From: Armatimonadota bacterium
Lineage (GTDB): Bacteria; Armatimonadota; Fimbriimonadia; Fimbriimonadales; Fimbriimonadaceae
DNA length: 38,713 nt
Assembly: GCA_018268335.1 (NCBI GenBank)
Contig: JAFDWT010000041.1
Location: forward strand, 1-38,713
Direction of reading: 5' to 3'
In this document: positions 765 through 7,770 of the stretch, one piece after another
Numbering within the stretch: position 1 is the first letter of the stretch
How the letters are laid out: every line of letters begins with the position of its first letter
Translations under genes and position numbers: made by a program
Notes under the pieces: generated by a model
Seen by the model: only the letters and a program-made list of their open reading frames with translations
Told to the model about the DNA's origin: nothing
Database searches by the model: none

Positions 765-1526
765 ATGGACGAGAAGCTTGCCTTAGTCCTGGTGGGATCC
801 CTTGCAACGATCATTGGCTCCGTTGTAACGCAGGTGCTTAGCTATGCCTTGCAACAACATCGACGATCCCAAGACGAAAGGCAGGAGAAGGTCAAAAGGC
901 AGGTTGCGCTTATTGAGATTCTAATAGCCGAAGTACTGTCGACGGAAGGAGAGATTCGCGCTGCTGCCGGCGCTCAGCTTGAAGCGATTATGGCCTCAAA
1001 AGACAGCGGTGACTTCCATCCCAGATTCATGGATTTCACTCGAAGGTTAGTCGAGGTTGAAGGCAGCAGACAAAGTGTTGACTTGATGATCGAAGCATTC
1101 AAGAACAGAAAATCTCAGATCGATGAGAAAGTCAATCGGTCACTTGAACTCTCCTTTCGAGCCTTTAGTCAAGCCCGCCAAGCGTGTTTTAAGCCGATCG
1201 CGACAGCGGCAAGGCTTGTCGGCGTAGAGAAACACTTCAACTCCTCTGAGAAACTCCATGCAATTGTGCAGAGAGTCCTTGAGGCAGAGTTAGCAGGTTG
1301 CGTGCTTGAAACTTCAAATGTGCAAAATATGATCCAGCTTCTGGTCGAAGACTTGACGACGCTCATGACACAGGTGCAAGAGGGTTCTTTTGACCAAAAA
1401 TCGGCAAATGGCGTCAATCCTCTACCGACAGGATTGTACACAATCCTGGATAGGTATGATGAATTGGTTATGAGCAAGTGGTTGGAGATCAAATTGTTTG
1501 CAAAGGGGCAGCAGGAGACTTCCTGA
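765..1526 (+). CDS. Hypothetical membrane-anchored helical protein
   Basis: I do not recognise the family. The 253-residue protein starts with a hydrophobic segment (about residues 5-28, LALVLVGSLATIIGSV) and a basic stretch QQHRRSQDERQEKVKRQ, as expected for one membrane anchor with the rest in the cytoplasm. The remainder is charged, predicted mostly helical and free of obvious catalytic motifs. Codons are richer in A and T (AAA, ATT, GAA, TTG) than in groEL, which suggests acquired DNA. The ATG at 765 has no clear Shine-Dalgarno sequence. It converges on the TOPRIM-like gene 2145-3779 across a 618-bp gap; a functional link is only a guess from shared composition. Confidence 0.7.
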   Translation: MDEKLALVLVGSLATIIGSVVTQVLSYALQQHRRSQDERQEKVKRQVALIEILIAEVLSTEGEIRAAAGAQLEAIMASKDSGDFHPRFMDFTRRLVEVEGSRQSVDLMIEAFKNRKSQIDEKVNRSLELSFRAFSQARQACFKPIATAARLVGVEKHFNSSEKLHAIVQRVLEAELAGCVLETSNVQNMIQLLVEDLTTLMTQVQEGSFDQKSANGVNPLPTGLYTILDRYDELVMSKWLEIKLFAKGQQETS

Positions 1527-2144
1527 TTCTCAGATTCTGACCCGAAGATCCAGAAAATATCGTAGCTAACCTGTGGCCAGGTAGTCCGACTGTACGGGTG
1601 GGTGCCGCTGGTGCTTACCGGTGCGATCACCGAGCAGTATGGACTTTGATCCAACAGGCTCCGACACAACAAGGCGGCCCCGGCGGAAACATTGCCGGGG
1701 CCTTTGCATGTTACAGCACAGCGAACGCTCTTAGCCACCTTAAGCGCGAGGCTTTGGGCGGGGCCACCCTCCCATAGCGCAAACGGGTCGCTTGCCGGGG
1801 AGACCAGGCAGCGTCGCGTTGCGGTCACCCGGCAGCCGACGTACGACCCCGGTACGGACAGATATGCGAACTTGGTCCGGGTAGTGCCCCCTCTGTCTGT
1901 CACCCTCTCTAGATCAAGCCACCTCCTGGCTACTTTCTTCCTTCGAGTGTCCTATTCATGCTTCCGCGCCGTCACCCGACTGATACATCTGTCCAAAAGA
2001 GGGTTTTCAGGCACCGGAGTCTGTAGGGACGTGAGTCACAAATGTGTAAGGTACACAATAGCAAGCGGTAATCGCATTCTTGCACCAGCGGCACCCATCC
2101 GGAGTCATTGCTCGATCCGGCTACCTGGCTCTCTGCCATCGATG
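1527..2144. other. 618-bp gap with no convincing gene
   Basis: Neither strand offers a protein with natural composition. The plus-strand frame 1692-2168 is low-complexity in character, rich in Arg, Ser and Cys, and overlaps the end of the TOPRIM-like gene. The stretch holds a strong hairpin (1676-1702) and a smaller one, CGGTG-CGAT-CACCG (1619-1632). I compared it by eye with tmRNA, RNase P RNA, SRP RNA and 5S rRNA signatures and found no match. An uncharacterised structured RNA or decayed DNA are both possible. Confidence 0.5.
1676..1705 (+). terminator. Strong GC hairpin, possible terminator
   Basis: GGCCCCGGC (1676-1684) and GCCGGGGCC (1694-1702) form a perfect 9-bp stem around a 9-base loop, followed by only TTT. 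It is 150 bp downstream of the 765-1526 gene and could end its transcript; the short T-run makes this weaker than the groEL terminator, whose stem is similar. Confidence 0.5.
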
Positions 2145-3779
2145 TTAGTCGCGTTTGACGATCCCTAGCGTTCCACTATCTATCCTGAACTGCTCCTGCT
2201 GATATCGGTATTCAACATCAGCGCTCATATAGGCTACTCGGATAGCGGCTATAACTGGTCTCTCACCGCCACCGGGTAAATCTAGATTCGCCTTTACTGT
2301 CTCCCACAGCGCCCGTCCCCAGGCCATGCCCTTTACCTCTCTTCGAGTGCCTTCATGTATCTCAATGTACTTTTGCTCAAAGTCGTGTCCGTTCCTAACG
2401 CCGGCAAACAAACTGACATCAAGAAGATTTGAGCTATCCGTCGGGTAGTCGTCTTCCTTGTCGTAGTAAATCGCAGCTGTCACTAACTCTTCAATAGTAA
2501 AATTGGCAAATTCAAAGTCAGGGTTATAGATTGGAATGTAACCTACAATTAAGTCATTAGAAACCATTCTTTTGATTGCTGCTATATTTGCAGAGACGTC
2601 CGCATCTGCCGAAACAAATGAAAACCTCTCGGCGGCCTTATCGCGCTTTAAGTCTTCAAACAACTCAACAAGGGCGTCTCCCGTGAACTTGCCTTTGCAA
2701 TCAACCACCTCAACTTGGCTGTCGCGTATTCCCCCTAGCGCAGCATTTAAGAATCCAACCTCGGTTGCACCTTCTACATACCACTTCACGCGAACGCTTA
2801 CATCCAACCCCATACGTTGGAGCAATTCCTTTCTGTAGTAGCTAGGATGGTCTAGTGCACGATCTGAGCCAAATGCGAGTTTGCGCCCGCTTTTGTGCCA
2901 CATTCCAAATGCGACATCTTCTTCTTCAAGTTGCACGTCGTGGGCTTCTTCGGTTCCCCGTCTTAAAACCTCCGCCATGTGCCTGATCCACATGGCAAGA
3001 CCCGTCTCGCCCTTAATATTATGCCTAGTTGCCCAGTTTGCAGAGCGAATCAATCGGTAGAGGTCAGTATTGTCCTCAAGCATTGCCGCTCTAATCCGCA
3101 ACAATTCATGAGCATGTTTCAGCCTTTCAAGTTCGATGCTTCGAACGAACTTAAGTGCTTCGTCGCGATATCCGTCGTGTATGCTGTCCAGTTCATCGTC
3201 TGCAGTCAGACTGCGGCCTCTAAATCGCGAGGTTATCCAGGGCCAATACACTGGCTCCAGTGCTATGGCGACATCGGCGACCCCGTTACATGTCTCCGCG
3301 AGAGGTACGAGATTGCCATCTGCGATTCCTTTCCACTTTTCCGCGGCCGCCTTTTCAATTGTCTTCGGGAAGTCTTCACACAATACGGATGAAACACTCC
3401 ATCCAAGTTTCAAGCCTTCGATAATCTGGAACAGAGGAAAGACCCGGAAGGGGTGAAACGACGGTACATGCTGCTCAGAATTGTCTCGCTGAGGCCAAAT
3501 CTCACCAATCTTACGGTCGTCAGATTGAAAACGTCGTACCTTGGCGCTCAATCGCTCTCTGTATTCTCTTGCTCTTATCTCATATTCCTCGCATCGCAAC
3601 CAACCTCGACGCCAAAAGTCGCCGATGTCTCCTTCGACGACCCCAGATACATTCACGTGAAGGCTTTTGCACCAGGACAGAAACCGACTCTCGTTCATGA
3701 GATCGCATTGCCGAACGCGCTCCAACAAGTCAATGTTGTTCGCGAGAAATCCATATGTTTCGTTGCTTGAGAGTCTCAT
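2145..3779 (-). CDS. TOPRIM-like protein, OLD-nuclease-type core, otherwise unknown
   Basis: The protein has 544 residues. Residues 331-440 look like a TOPRIM fold: beta strand plus glutamate motif WYVEGATEVGFL (VEGATE at 335-340), then SADAD (390-394, the DxD motif) and a PDFEFANF segment (420-427). This spacing resembles the C-terminal nuclease half of OLD-family proteins, which cleave or nick DNA using metal ions. The N-terminal 330 residues are rich in Trp, Arg and acidic residues and show no Walker A motif, so it is not a classical OLD ATPase-nuclease. Composition is less GC-rich than the flanks, suggesting transfer. A phage-defence or element-borne nuclease role is an inference. The start is the first ATG of the frame (MRLSSNETYG). 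Confidence 0.75.
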   Translation of the reverse strand: MRLSSNETYGFLANNIDLLERVRQCDLMNESRFLSWCKSLHVNVSGVVEGDIGDFWRRGWLRCEEYEIRAREYRERLSAKVRRFQSDDRKIGEIWPQRDNSEQHVPSFHPFRVFPLFQIIEGLKLGWSVSSVLCEDFPKTIEKAAAEKWKGIADGNLVPLAETCNGVADVAIALEPVYWPWITSRFRGRSLTADDELDSIHDGYRDEALKFVRSIELERLKHAHELLRIRAAMLEDNTDLYRLIRSANWATRHNIKGETGLAMWIRHMAEVLRRGTEEAHDVQLEEEDVAFGMWHKSGRKLAFGSDRALDHPSYYRKELLQRMGLDVSVRVKWYVEGATEVGFLNAALGGIRDSQVEVVDCKGKFTGDALVELFEDLKRDKAAERFSFVSADADVSANIAAIKRMVSNDLIVGYIPIYNPDFEFANFTIEELVTAAIYYDKEDDYPTDSSNLLDVSLFAGVRNGHDFEQKYIEIHEGTRREVKGMAWGRALWETVKANLDLPGGGERPVIAAIRVAYMSADVEYRYQQEQFRIDSGTLGIVKRD

Positions 3780-4046
3780 GCGAACTCCACTTGGCCATCC
3801 GTGGTGGGGGCGCCCGGTATCTAGTCGGAATCACGCGCCTATCGAGCGAGTAATCTGACCGTTGACCTACACCCCCATGGGGCAAGAGTCACCGTTTCGG
3901 GTGCGACCGAACAGCCACGACCGTCAATGTACCTGTAGAGAGGAACACCTCTCGTTGGTGAGACTTCGGAAAGCCGAATACTCTGAGGTTTCGACTACCA
4001 GGGTTTGTGAACTGGGTGAGTGGTTTCTGCCCGGTCGCGACTACCG
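3780..4046. other. Gene-free stretch upstream of the ATPase patch, possible folded RNA
   Basis: No credible ORF is present. Bases 3931-4005 contain nested complementary segments: CCTGTAG (3931-3937) can pair with CTACCAGG near 3998-4005 with one bulge, enclosing GAGAGG-AACA-CCTCTC (3938-3953) and TTCGG-AAAG-CCGAA (3965-3978). This could be an RNA element or coincidence. It lies between the divergent TOPRIM-like gene and the duplicated ATPase 5' end. Confidence 0.35.
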
Positions 4047-4047
4047 A

Positions 4048-4155
4048 AGTTGATCAACCGACCCGCGACGACCTACTAGGCAGTGCACCTCCCTACCCCT
4101 GCCAAACGCCTCGCCAAGGCCGAGCACCAAAAGCAAACCTGGCGACGCATCTTCA
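4048..4155 (+). pseudogene. Duplicated 5' end of the RepA-like ATPase gene
   Basis: This stretch repeats the leader and first ~27 codons of the gene at 4261. Shared landmarks in order are AAGTTGA.CAAC, ACGACCTA, AGTGCAC and then the reading frame, PAKRLAKAEHQKQTWRRIF against PAERLAQDEHQKQAWRRVF in the intact gene. Homology stops at about 4155, where a CTCTCCCTTGAAGGGGGAGG repeat takes over. It is therefore a broken copy and not a functional gene. Divergence is moderate, so the duplication is not recent. Confidence 0.8.
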
Positions 4156-4228
4156 ATGAGCCTCTCCCTTGAAGGGGGAGGTCGGTGAGTCTGCGAACCG
4201 GGTGGGGATTCTCCGGACCTGCTTCGGA
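4156..4228. repeat. GC-rich palindromic interspersed repeat
   Basis: The stretch begins CTCTCCCTTGAAGGGGGAGG, whose arms CTCTCCCTT and AAGGGGGAG are nearly complementary, and continues GTCGGTGAGTCTGCGAACC and GGGTGGGG. It separates the broken ATPase 5' copy from the intact one. The style matches the insertion inside the ATPase gene at 4930-5060. Membership of a genome-wide family is inferred. Confidence 0.5.
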
Positions 4229-4260
4229 TAAGTTGACCAACACAACTGCCACGACCTAGG

Positions 4261-5382
4261 TTGATAGTGCACTTCCTCACCCCCGCCGAACGCCTCGCCC
4301 AAGACGAACACCAAAAGCAAGCCTGGCGCCGAGTCTTCCTACCGCTCGAATCCCACTACCTCGGCCACCAACAGCCCTGGCTTGTCCAAGATTGGCTCCC
4401 CCTTGGCACCCTCGCCATTCTCGCCTCGCCGCCCAAACAAGGGAAGACCGCCCTCGCCACCGCTCTGGCCCTCGCCGTCGCCACCGGAACCCCCTTTGCC
4501 GGCATGAACACCGCCCAAGGCGGCGTCCTCTGGCTCGCGCAAGAGGAGTCCATGTGGGACCGCCTCCGCCTGCTCGAACAGTGCCCGTCCCTCGATCCCC
4601 TCGTCCCCCTCTTCACCGCCTACGACCACCTGCCCGTAGACCAGCCCGAGACTATGGAGTTCCTCTCCTTTTGGGTCCAAGAGACCGCCGCCAAGCTCAT
4701 CGTCGTCGACCCCCTCCACGGCGCGACCTCGGGTCGCTCCCTCGTCGACGGCTGGTCTGCCCGCCGCACCCTCGACCCCCTGCGCCAACTCTGCCAAAGC
4801 CACGGCGTCACCGCCCTCGTCCTCCACCACAGCAAACGCGCCGCCCACACCCAAGGCCGCCAACGCATAGCCGAATCCGACCAACTAGCCGCCACCTCCG
4901 GCATGAACATCGTCCTCTCAAGTCGAAGTCTCCGTACTCCCCCTCCAGCCCCTGGTGGAGGGGGCCGGGGGGAGGTCTCCTCCGATCCCCCCTCTTGCGA
5001 GCGTAGCGAGGAGGAGGGGGCTAGGGGGCGGTTCCGGTCTCCGGAGGCTCCAGCCTCCACCAGAATCGTCACCCTAGACTGCTCCGGCCGAGGCCCCTTC
5101 GCGAACCGCAGCCTCCGCCTCCTCAGCAACGGCCCCCTCGACTACCACCTCCAAGACCAGCTCCCCGCAGGCGACCCCACAGAAAGAGCCCACATCCCCT
5201 ACACCCGCCAAATCCTCGACCTCCTCGAAGCTCAAGGCCCCCTCTCCAGCGCCGCGATCATCGCCCACCTAGAGCTACCCGACAACTCAGCCCGAGTAGC
5301 CCTCTCCCGCCTCGTCAAGCAAGCCCACGTCACCTGGACATCACAAGAAGGCGAACGGATTTATCACCTCGCCCACCCATGA
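4261..5382 (+). CDS. AAA_25/RepA-like P-loop ATPase with inserted repeat
   Basis: This is a RecA-fold ATPase of the RepA/DnaB-like type found in plasmids, phages and integrated elements, usually acting as a replicative-helicase-like hexamer. It opens with a short leader, then PWLVQDWLPLGTLAILA and the Walker A variant SPPKQGKTA (56-64). A WLAQEES segment follows at 91-97, Walker B LIVVD at 146-150, and the sensor-like LVLHHSKR at 187-193. A C-terminal winged-helix-like domain (about 312-373) is predicted to bind DNA. Residues ~222-266 (PPPAPGGGGRGEV...) are alien, encoded by a palindromic repeat inserted in frame between two beta strands. The start is TTG 4261 or GTG 4267; the homologous 5' copy supports this region. 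The natural partners (primase, integrase) are absent. Confidence 0.8.
   Translation: MIVHFLTPAERLAQDEHQKQAWRRVFLPLESHYLGHQQPWLVQDWLPLGTLAILASPPKQGKTALATALALAVATGTPFAGMNTAQGGVLWLAQEESMWDRLRLLEQCPSLDPLVPLFTAYDHLPVDQPETMEFLSFWVQETAAKLIVVDPLHGATSGRSLVDGWSARRTLDPLRQLCQSHGVTALVLHHSKRAAHTQGRQRIAESDQLAATSGMNIVLSSRSLRTPPPAPGGGGRGEVSSDPPSCERSEEEGARGRFRSPEAPASTRIVTLDCSGRGPFANRSLRLLSNGPLDYHLQDQLPAGDPTERAHIPYTRQILDLLEAQGPLSSAAIIAHLELPDNSARVALSRLVKQAHVTWTSQEGERIYHLAHP
4930..5062. repeat. In-frame palindromic repeat inside the ATPase gene
   Basis: The stretch contains three hairpins: CCCCCTCCA/TGGAGGGGG (4939-4947 with 4956-4964), CCCCCTC/GAGGGGG (4988-4994 with 5014-5020) and GGAGGCT/AGCCTCC (5043-5049 with 5052-5058). 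It is translated as a Pro/Gly/Ser/Arg-rich loop with no resemblance to the ATPase family, and the reading frame is kept open across it. Confidence 0.7.
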
Positions 5383-5433
5383 AACATGTTAAATTGATAA
5401 TTTGATAATTCGGCCGAGTGGGTGCGCGTCTGA

Positions 5434-5740
5434 TCAGCCCCGACTCCCAGACGTCGGATCAATCACCACATGGCGGATACGCTCGCGGCGCCAGGTGTAG
5501 GTGACGTGGACAAGCCCGTCCCGGGTCTGGATGACGGCGGGGTAGGAGTACTCGCCCGGGCCGGACTCCAAGTCCATCACGGGGCTCCAATGTTCGGCGT
5601 CCGTGGAGACGGCGACGCTCAGGGGCGTCCGGGCCGTCGCCGAGCCGTCGTACATCATCAAGTGGCCCTGTCTGACAATGGGATTCCCGTTTGCCGGATC
5701 CCTTGCGGGAGTCTGTTGCTGACGGGGCTGCCCGCAACGC
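5434..5740 (-). pseudogene. Broken paralogue of the sialidase 3' end
   Basis: The minus-strand frame reads QGHLMMYDGSATARTPLSV and continues to VTYTWRRERIRHVVIDP, matching the last ~85 residues of the sialidase-like gene at 6580-7581. The N-terminal part of that enzyme, including its first Asp boxes, is missing, and the upstream residues (MSNMQQGALHIKTN) are unrelated. It is therefore a remnant. Its central 155 bp are almost identical to the intact gene while its ends are clearly diverged, which is discussed as a possible gene-conversion tract. Confidence 0.75.
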
Positions 5741-6573: not shown

Positions 6574-6579
6574 AGATGA

Positions 6580-7581
6580 TCAACCCCGACGCCCAGGCGA
6601 CGGGTCGATGACCACGTGCCGGATCCGCTCGCGCCGCCAGGTGTAGGTGACGTGGACGAGCCCGTCGCGGGTCTGGATGACGGCTGGGTAGGAGTACTCG
6701 CCCGGGCCGGACTCCAAGTCCATCACGGGGCTCCAATGTTCGGCGTCCGTGGAGACGGCGACGCTCAGAGGCGTCCTGGCCGTCGCCGAGTTGTTGTACA
6801 CCAGCAAGAAGCGCCCGTCTCGGAGCCGCACGGCGTCGGTCCCCGCATTGGGGTTCGGGAGGTCCAGCAAGTGGATCGGCCCCCATGTCCGGCCCTGGTC
6901 GGAGGAGTCGATGGCGAAGACTTTGCCCTGCTGCGTCCGCCCGACCGCCCGGAGCTTCGATCCGCCCAGCTGGAGCAGGGAAGGCTGGATCGCCCCGACC
7001 TCCGGCCCGTGGAGCGACGGCGTCCGCTGCCACGTCAGGCCCAAGTCCTTGCTTGTCTCCATGTGCAGAGACCACCGGGGTGACTCGTCGCTCGAGCCGC
7101 ACAGCAGAGTGCCGTCCCGCAGCTCGATCGGCTTGTTCTTGATCGGGCCCAGGATGCCCTCGGGCAGGCGGCCCGGCGTCTGCCACGTGACCCCGTCGTC
7201 CGCTGACCGGGTCATCATCCCCCACCAGGTCTGCGGCCCGGTACCCACTTTGTAGAAGAGCAGCAGCGGCCCCCGCCGGGGCTGGAAGAGCACCGGGTTA
7301 TAACACGCGTTCGGCCTACCGTCCTTGCCGACGCCCACCGCCACCTTCTCGGGCTTCGACCACCCCCCGCGCCCCCGCCGCGCCGCCCAGACCGCCACGT
7401 CCGGATTGCTCTCCGCCGTCCCGCCGAACCAGGCGCACATGAGCGTCCCCGCGCTCGTCTCGACCACCGTCGACGCATGGCAAGAAGCAAACGGCGCCGA
7501 CAGGAAAACGAACTCAGAGCTCACCACCTTCATGGTGGGCACCGGATGGGCCGCTAGCTGTGCAAACAGCATAAACCCCAT
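6580..7581 (-). CDS. Sialidase-like BNR/Asp-box protein, secreted
   Basis: This is a 333-residue beta-propeller of the exo-alpha-sialidase/BNR-repeat family, which hydrolyses terminal sialic acids or related sugars outside the cytoplasm. Asp boxes (SxDxGxxW) are visible as SADDGVTW (126-133), SKDLGLTW (177-184) and SSDQGRTW (226-233). Conserved segments FASCHASTVVE (31-41) and SDESPRWSLHME (164-175) carry the expected Arg, His and acidic residues. The start at 7581 (MGFMLFAQLAAH) gives a short hydrophobic leader. The frame is open to 7626, but that part overlaps an ATPase gene fragment and is rejected. Family members also act on other glycans, so the substrate is uncertain. Confidence 0.85.
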   Translation of the reverse strand: MGFMLFAQLAAHPVPTMKVVSSEFVFLSAPFASCHASTVVETSAGTLMCAWFGGTAESNPDVAVWAARRGRGGWSKPEKVAVGVGKDGRPNACYNPVLFQPRRGPLLLFYKVGTGPQTWWGMMTRSADDGVTWQTPGRLPEGILGPIKNKPIELRDGTLLCGSSDESPRWSLHMETSKDLGLTWQRTPSLHGPEVGAIQPSLLQLGGSKLRAVGRTQQGKVFAIDSSDQGRTWGPIHLLDLPNPNAGTDAVRLRDGRFLLVYNNSATARTPLSVAVSTDAEHWSPVMDLESGPGEYSYPAVIQTRDGLVHVTYTWRRERIRHVVIDPSPGRRG

Positions 7582-7587
7582 TGTGCC

Positions 7588-7770
7588 ACCCAGTGGCAAC
7601 AGCGCCTCATTCGCCGACAAGGACACAGCACGAGGCGGCGTCCTTTGGCTCAGTCAAGTGGAGTCCAGGAGGGATCGCATCTGCCTGCTTAGGCAGTATC
7701 CCGGCCTCGATGCCCACATTCTGTAGCTGTTTGACGGAATATTTTCCTCGCCCAGACTCAGTGCCGAAAG
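7588..7770 (+). pseudogene. Internal fragment of an ATPase paralogue
   Basis: The translated stretch FADKDTARGGVLWLSQVESR and RDRICLLRQYPGLDAHIL aligns with FAGMNTAQGGVLWLAQEESM and DRLRLLEQCPSLDPLV of the ATPase at 4261. A TAG at 7724 interrupts the frame, and weak similarity (LFDGIF against LFTAYD) continues beyond. Both ends of the gene are missing. It lies immediately upstream of the sialidase start, so remnants of the ATPase family bracket the whole patch. Confidence 0.75.

Follow-up and report, generated by a model that had tools for sequence, protein, structure and literature searches.

Control of OLD nucleases is ascribed to their ABC ATPase. TOPRIM-containing effectors that have no ATPase of their own are also known, as in JetD/MksG of Wadjet and MksBEFG, which come from SMC-type operons. 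The metal ligands and catalytic lysine of BpOLD are E400, E404, D455, D457, T506, E508, and K562 (PMC6755086), with the counterparts E398, E402, D453, D455, D541, E543, and K550 in P2 OLD (PMC7049728). The window analyzed here, a stretch of 38,713 nucleotides, is a contig of a 3.09-Mb draft genome whose closest relatives with named records belong to the Fimbriimonadaceae/Armatimonadetes. It encodes a 544-aa protein that we consider fairly probable to be an OLD-type two-metal TOPRIM nuclease lacking an ATPase, representing an undescribed family, carried as a mobile single gene and serving most likely as an anti-phage or anti-mobile-element effector. The open-access literature searched, which covers OLD classes 1 to 4 and AriB, describes no ATPase-less family of this architecture.

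The TOPRIM gene and its convergent neighbor

The TOPRIM gene faces a second open reading frame across 618 bp, and fragments of other genes lie beside the pair:

765..1526, plus strand: 253-aa single-anchor protein, judged to be outside the system; zero homologs found
1675..1877, minus strand: remnant of a native gene found 3' of groEL in a same-genus genome (L127:3563-3767; 70.4% identity, E 2.3e-19)
2145..3779, minus strand: gene for the 544-aa OLD-type TOPRIM protein without ATPase, with GGAG a few nucleotides before the ATG
4082-4338; 4490-4600 / 7605-7715; 5431-5662 / 6577-6808: repeated fragments, AAA_25 (RepA-like) / sialidase-like

The first-pass annotation had described two convergent, AT-rich genes of foreign origin, and the coordinates and base composition agree with that description. 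Both genes have a GC content of 49% and a GC3 of 0.51 to 0.53 (GC/GC3 of 0.486/0.531 for 765-1526 and 0.490/0.505 for 2145-3779), compared with 0.667 and 0.888 for the neighboring groEL and a GC content of 0.58 to 0.66 for the genes that come after. For the TOPRIM gene, a foreign origin is supported by composition together with the neighborhood and evolutionary evidence given below. The partial gene duplications beside this islet, consisting of the AAA_25 (RepA-like) and sialidase-like fragments, are 74 to 91% identical.

Adjacency and shared AT richness would suit a two-gene membrane-effector system, as had been proposed, in which the TOPRIM protein works with the convergent single-anchor protein, and the lone hydrophobic stretch of the 253-aa protein (residues 7 to 25) is consistent with the single membrane anchor ascribed to it. 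However, the genes are convergent rather than operonic, and the presumed partner has zero homologs in the 291 phylum genomes, 72,556 plasmids, and viral contigs searched. It is also missing from all other loci of the TOPRIM family, and no co-occurrence of the two protein families was found in any of these sets. The gap between the genes, moreover, is not gene free as had been thought. In the same-genus genome G117, the groEL DNA is 92% identical to that of the window, with similarity stopping at the groEL stop codon, and 203 bases of the gap (1675-1877) match the G117 gene downstream of groEL (70%, E 2e-19); on account of this similarity, the stretch is read as a decayed native gene. Because this native remnant lies between the two AT-rich genes, they are best taken as separate acquisitions. 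A two-gene system is thus scarcely credible, and the gene for the membrane protein adjoins the TOPRIM gene but is unrelated to it.

TOPRIM core and catalytic residues

The 544-aa protein is a genuine OLD-type TOPRIM protein, as had been suspected from its motifs, and hhalign, Foldseek, and the catalytic residues bear on the following features:

2490..2798, minus strand: TOPRIM core, about residues 328-430 (hhalign to OLD TOPRIM; Foldseek to DnaG TOPRIM)
2760..2777, minus strand: motif 1, VEGATE, residues 335-340; E336 and E340 correspond to BpOLD E400 and E404; invariant in 13 members
2598..2612, minus strand: motif 2, SADAD, residues 390-394; D392 and D394 correspond to BpOLD D455 and D457; invariant in 13 members
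2511..2525, minus strand: motif 3, NPDFE, residues 419-423; D421 and E423 correspond to BpOLD T506 and E508 and to P2 OLD D541 and E543; invariant in 13 members
2331..2333, minus strand: K483, invariant in the 12 full-length members and located within the C-terminal helical region; candidate counterpart of BpOLD K562
2148..2489, minus strand: C-terminal helical region, residues 431-544 (AlphaFold2 model; Foldseek to 6njx)

Comparison by hhalign of the C-terminal halves of the family with a profile built from 14 OLD-type TOPRIM proteins of the phylum gave a match at 96.2% (E 2e-9, score 62.7); the best control scores were 18.5 in 60 column shuffles and 10.4 with the profile reversed. The Pfam OLD-like_TOPRIM model reached 13.9 bits in the window protein, below its cut-off of 23.2, and, at a threshold as loose as E 0.1, matched just 1 of 13 core members, but it directly matched five of nine more distant members (best E value, 4.8e-5). 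The full-length AlphaFold2 model (pLDDT 83.6, pTM 0.67) has the strand-helix order of TOPRIM, and Foldseek recovered the fold with a DnaG TOPRIM match (probability 1.00, rmsd 2.6 Å over 94 columns) and an RloB-like match (probability 0.98). Among the PDB matches listed, the highest target TM values belonged to the OLD C-terminal regions 6njx and 6njw (0.52 and 0.51, E about 1), the alignment to 6njx spanning 226 columns. No full-length Foldseek search gave an E value below 0.001, and a direct sequence search of the PDB returned nothing.

The first two motifs stand in the translation where the first-pass annotation had placed them. In the 13-member alignment, the invariant positions are H109-P110, E175-P176, E336, G337, E340, D392, D394, P420, D421, E423, and W487, and each of the seven catalytic residues of OLD has an invariant equivalent in the family (E336, E340, D392, D394, D421, E423, and K483), their order being that of BpOLD and P2 OLD. 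The early spacings are nearly equal (4 and 52 residues in the family versus 4 and 51 in BpOLD), and those further along are unequal (27 and 60 versus 49 and 54), so that D421/E423, and especially K483, are equated by order and conservation rather than by superposition. The DxD motif is not fully kept in the most distant members, which have S or E at the position of its second aspartate.

A conserved N-terminal domain without an ATPase

The remainder of the protein is a single further feature:

2814..3779, minus strand: N-terminal domain, residues 1-322; conserved, with a possible winged-helix-like start followed by a helical body

The lack of a Walker A motif, and with it of the usual ATPase half, had been noted for the window protein and extends to the whole family. 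The motif (GxxxxGK[ST]) was found in 0 of 23 family proteins, comprising the window protein and 22 relatives. By contrast, of the full-length OLD proteins examined from the same phylum, nearly all contain it. A domain of approximately 320 residues stands in place of the ABC ATPase. The alignment of the family has H109-P110 as invariant and F111-R112 as near-invariant positions within this domain, and AlphaFold2 modeled residues 1 to 322 with a pLDDT of 81.0 and a pTM of 0.84. The fold search that had been proposed for the N-terminal part, run with Foldseek on these residues against the PDB, gave no match (best E value, 1.9) and no ATPase fold. Judging from the order of helices and strands alone, the start of the domain is possibly winged-helix-like.

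A tRNA-like sequence upstream of the gene

The region just upstream of the TOPRIM gene contains a feature that had been overlooked:

3802..3876, minus strand: degenerate tRNA-like sequence with encoded CCA (RF00005, 28.9 bits; gathering threshold, 29)

A spacer of 22 nt separates this sequence from the TOPRIM start codon, and the nearest homolog, at locus L019, has an intact tRNA-Val in the equivalent position, 55 nt upstream; both are on the strand of the TOPRIM gene. This shared arrangement, and the finding that AriB, an OLD-related TOPRIM protein, cleaves tRNA (PMC12409363), would fit a tRNA-targeting nuclease for which the adjacent sequence is functional as a decoy, guard, or substrate. 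Such a role is highly improbable, as no other relative checked has a tRNA at that position and the two tRNAs are of different kinds. Furthermore, in the genus of L019, DNA similarity breaks off at the 3' end of the tRNA or no more than a few bases away, regardless of whether the TOPRIM gene is present, which is the usual mark of an integration site. The tRNA-like sequence in the window is probably the remnant of such a site and not a working part. No att-type direct repeats were found around it or around the tRNA of L019. The tRNA-like sequence does not appear to be a recent copy of a host tRNA: the best match among 40 tRNAs compared agrees at just 51 of 75 positions.

Three small membrane proteins are encoded upstream of cysS at L019:1921-3855 and, in reverse complement, at L170:5190-7253, and they recur in the genus. 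They were considered as partners of the L019 TOPRIM protein and rejected; similar proteins precede cysS in genome G153, which has no TOPRIM gene there, and they are therefore part of the cysS locus.

Distribution and evolution of the family

Relatives were gathered from the 291 phylum genomes and a set of 84,980 species genomes; the family is rare, with members scattered across seven or more phyla. Members occur in Armatimonadota, Gemmatimonadota, Bacteroidales, Moraxellaceae, Pseudoalteromonas, Acidobacteria, Desulfuromonadales, and Chloroflexi, with a further copy on an Ideonella plasmid. The family is present in 8 of the 291 phylum genomes and, in three other sampled groups, in 1 of 297, 1 of 247, and 7 of 251 genomes (the center genome being counted). 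None of 50,697 phage records carried a copy, and a phage or viral origin of the gene was rejected, there being no relatives in IMG/VR or among GenBank phages. The sole plasmid copy, in Ideonella (L010:497-11257), is truncated and adjoins an IS3 element; a diversity-generating retroelement (Avd and reverse transcriptases) lies approximately 6 kb from it. The copy in G110 (L014:9476-11063) is split across two reading frames and is thus frameshifted or decayed.

The family is horizontally transferred as a single gene and evolves under purifying selection yet fast. In two Pseudoalteromonas species, the TOPRIM genes differ with a dS of 0.006 compared with 0.33 for a nearby gene, indicating recent transfer. 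In a Chloroflexi pair, the TOPRIM proteins are 68.8% identical (dN 0.19, dS 0.77) between flanks that are 94.7 to 99.2% identical; here, the gene is either constrained but fast evolving or has been swapped for a divergent allele.

This pattern bears on whether the protein could be a housekeeping DNA repair or RNA processing enzyme, similar to RecR, DnaG, or RNase M5, that has been kept by chance in a few genomes. TOPRIM domains are common in such enzymes, and DnaG TOPRIM is the structural match with a probability of 1.00. The sparse occurrence within the phylum and the scatter over other phyla, the foreign composition, a divergence far faster than that of the flanks, and the presence of the OLD-specific third motif and lysine all speak against a housekeeping role, which we judge clearly improbable in comparison with a mobile defense effector.

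Gene neighborhoods

No constant partner gene was found across the loci of the TOPRIM family. The gene stands alone between pheS-like and sucC-like genes at L028, within near-identical flanks at L042 and L043, and adjoining a tRNA at L019, and several other loci lie amid ordinary genes with no defense gene in view. Defense neighbors were found at approximately 8 of approximately 20 independent loci, a raw count with no matched background that is suggestive rather than statistical. At L025, an N6/N4-methylase fused to Mrr_cat ends 8 bp before the TOPRIM ATG, and at L048:359-6835, Type I restriction genes HsdS-HsdR are followed by the TOPRIM gene in overlapping reading frames. Genes near the TOPRIM gene at other loci include HsdR with DUF4268 (L021), an MmeI-type gene (L015), DarTG (L023), AbiEii (L030), nSTAND3 (L046), and an HKD/SNF2 helicase (L045). 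The methylase-Mrr_cat and TOPRIM genes of L025, together with one for a 284-aa protein without a Pfam match, form a compact operon (L025:5011-9452) that is a candidate restriction-like system. A caspase-domain protein is encoded near the Desulfuromonadales copy (L027:7192-8193).

Some loci carry signs of mobility: L023/L024 have an integrase-like gene downstream, and the Ideonella region contains an arm-type integrase. Together with integration next to a tRNA at L019 and the recent transfer between Pseudoalteromonas species, these could mean that the nuclease belongs to a mobile element or addiction module and that the gene promotes its own spread or maintenance (as a toxin-like, homing, or integration-helper function) rather than defending the host. 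We regard this as unlikely, since many copies are single genes flanked by housekeeping genes with no recombinase, no antitoxin-like partner is constant, and neither tRNA is flanked by direct repeats.

Proposed function

The TOPRIM gene is probably linked to defense, whether as a stand-alone or an auxiliary component. Of the stand-alone or two-gene system suggested in the first-pass annotation, the stand-alone part is supported by profile, structure, residues, neighborhood, and evolution, and the two-gene part is not. We infer the nuclease activity, the defense role, sensing by the N-terminal domain, and the substrate of the protein. In the proposed mechanism, the N-terminal residues (approximately 320) would sense an infection cue or bind nucleic acid and would then release the TOPRIM center, which, once freed, might cut DNA, by analogy with OLD, or possibly tRNA, as AriB does. 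In some genomes, the protein may be coupled to a restriction-modification operon as a backup effector. A more specific form of this proposal, which we advance tentatively, is a one-gene immune system in which a novel non-ATPase sensor domain controls an OLD-type nuclease and which, in some bacteria, is wired into restriction-modification operons (N6/N4-methylase-Mrr and HsdS-HsdR) as a backup killer.

Comparison with known systems

Current catalogs do not recognize the family. None of the 13 core members matched NCBIfam or PHROG models at E 0.01, no Pfam model of any kind gave a match above weak background, and no PADLOC model reached an E value below 0.015.

Like the TOPRIM family, JetD/MksG are TOPRIM effectors without their own ATPase, but none of the 13 members matched the JetD/MksG family models, and SMC-type operons were not seen at the TOPRIM loci. 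RloB-like and AbiL-type TOPRIM proteins show a weak likeness (Foldseek probability of 0.98 for the RloB-like match; E 0.016 to AbiLii in one member). The RloB-like match, of 213 residues, is without the N-terminal domain of the family, and the family is without a constant ATPase partner.

AriB of PARIS (the so-called Class 4 OLD) resembles the family in having a TOPRIM nuclease separate from the ATPase. The TOPRIM family proteins are larger, with a different N-terminal domain and no constant ATPase neighbor, and the 13 members gave no match to the AriB DUF4435 at E 0.1 and no PADLOC match to PARIS. An AriA-type arrangement was looked for among the neighbors; a P-loop ATPase directly precedes the TOPRIM gene at L030 alone, and PADLOC does not recognize it. 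With respect to Gabija (GajA), no UvrD/PcrA/Rep-like helicase was recognized among the TOPRIM neighbors that were examined or scanned with Pfam.

With the Class 1 and Class 2 OLD nucleases (P2 OLD, TsOLD, BpOLD, and GajA of Gabija), the family has in common an OLD-type TOPRIM in which E, E/D, DxD, [T/S/D]xE, and K succeed one another in that order, and a helical region after it. The genes of class 1 OLD proteins are, in addition, solitary like the TOPRIM gene. The family differs from them in having neither an ABC ATPase nor a Walker A motif, in its conserved N-terminal domain, and in core members that fall below the Pfam OLD-like_TOPRIM cut-off. It would thus show another way of controlling an OLD-type nuclease, and it would add an unannotated anti-phage candidate to those that current defense catalogs contain.
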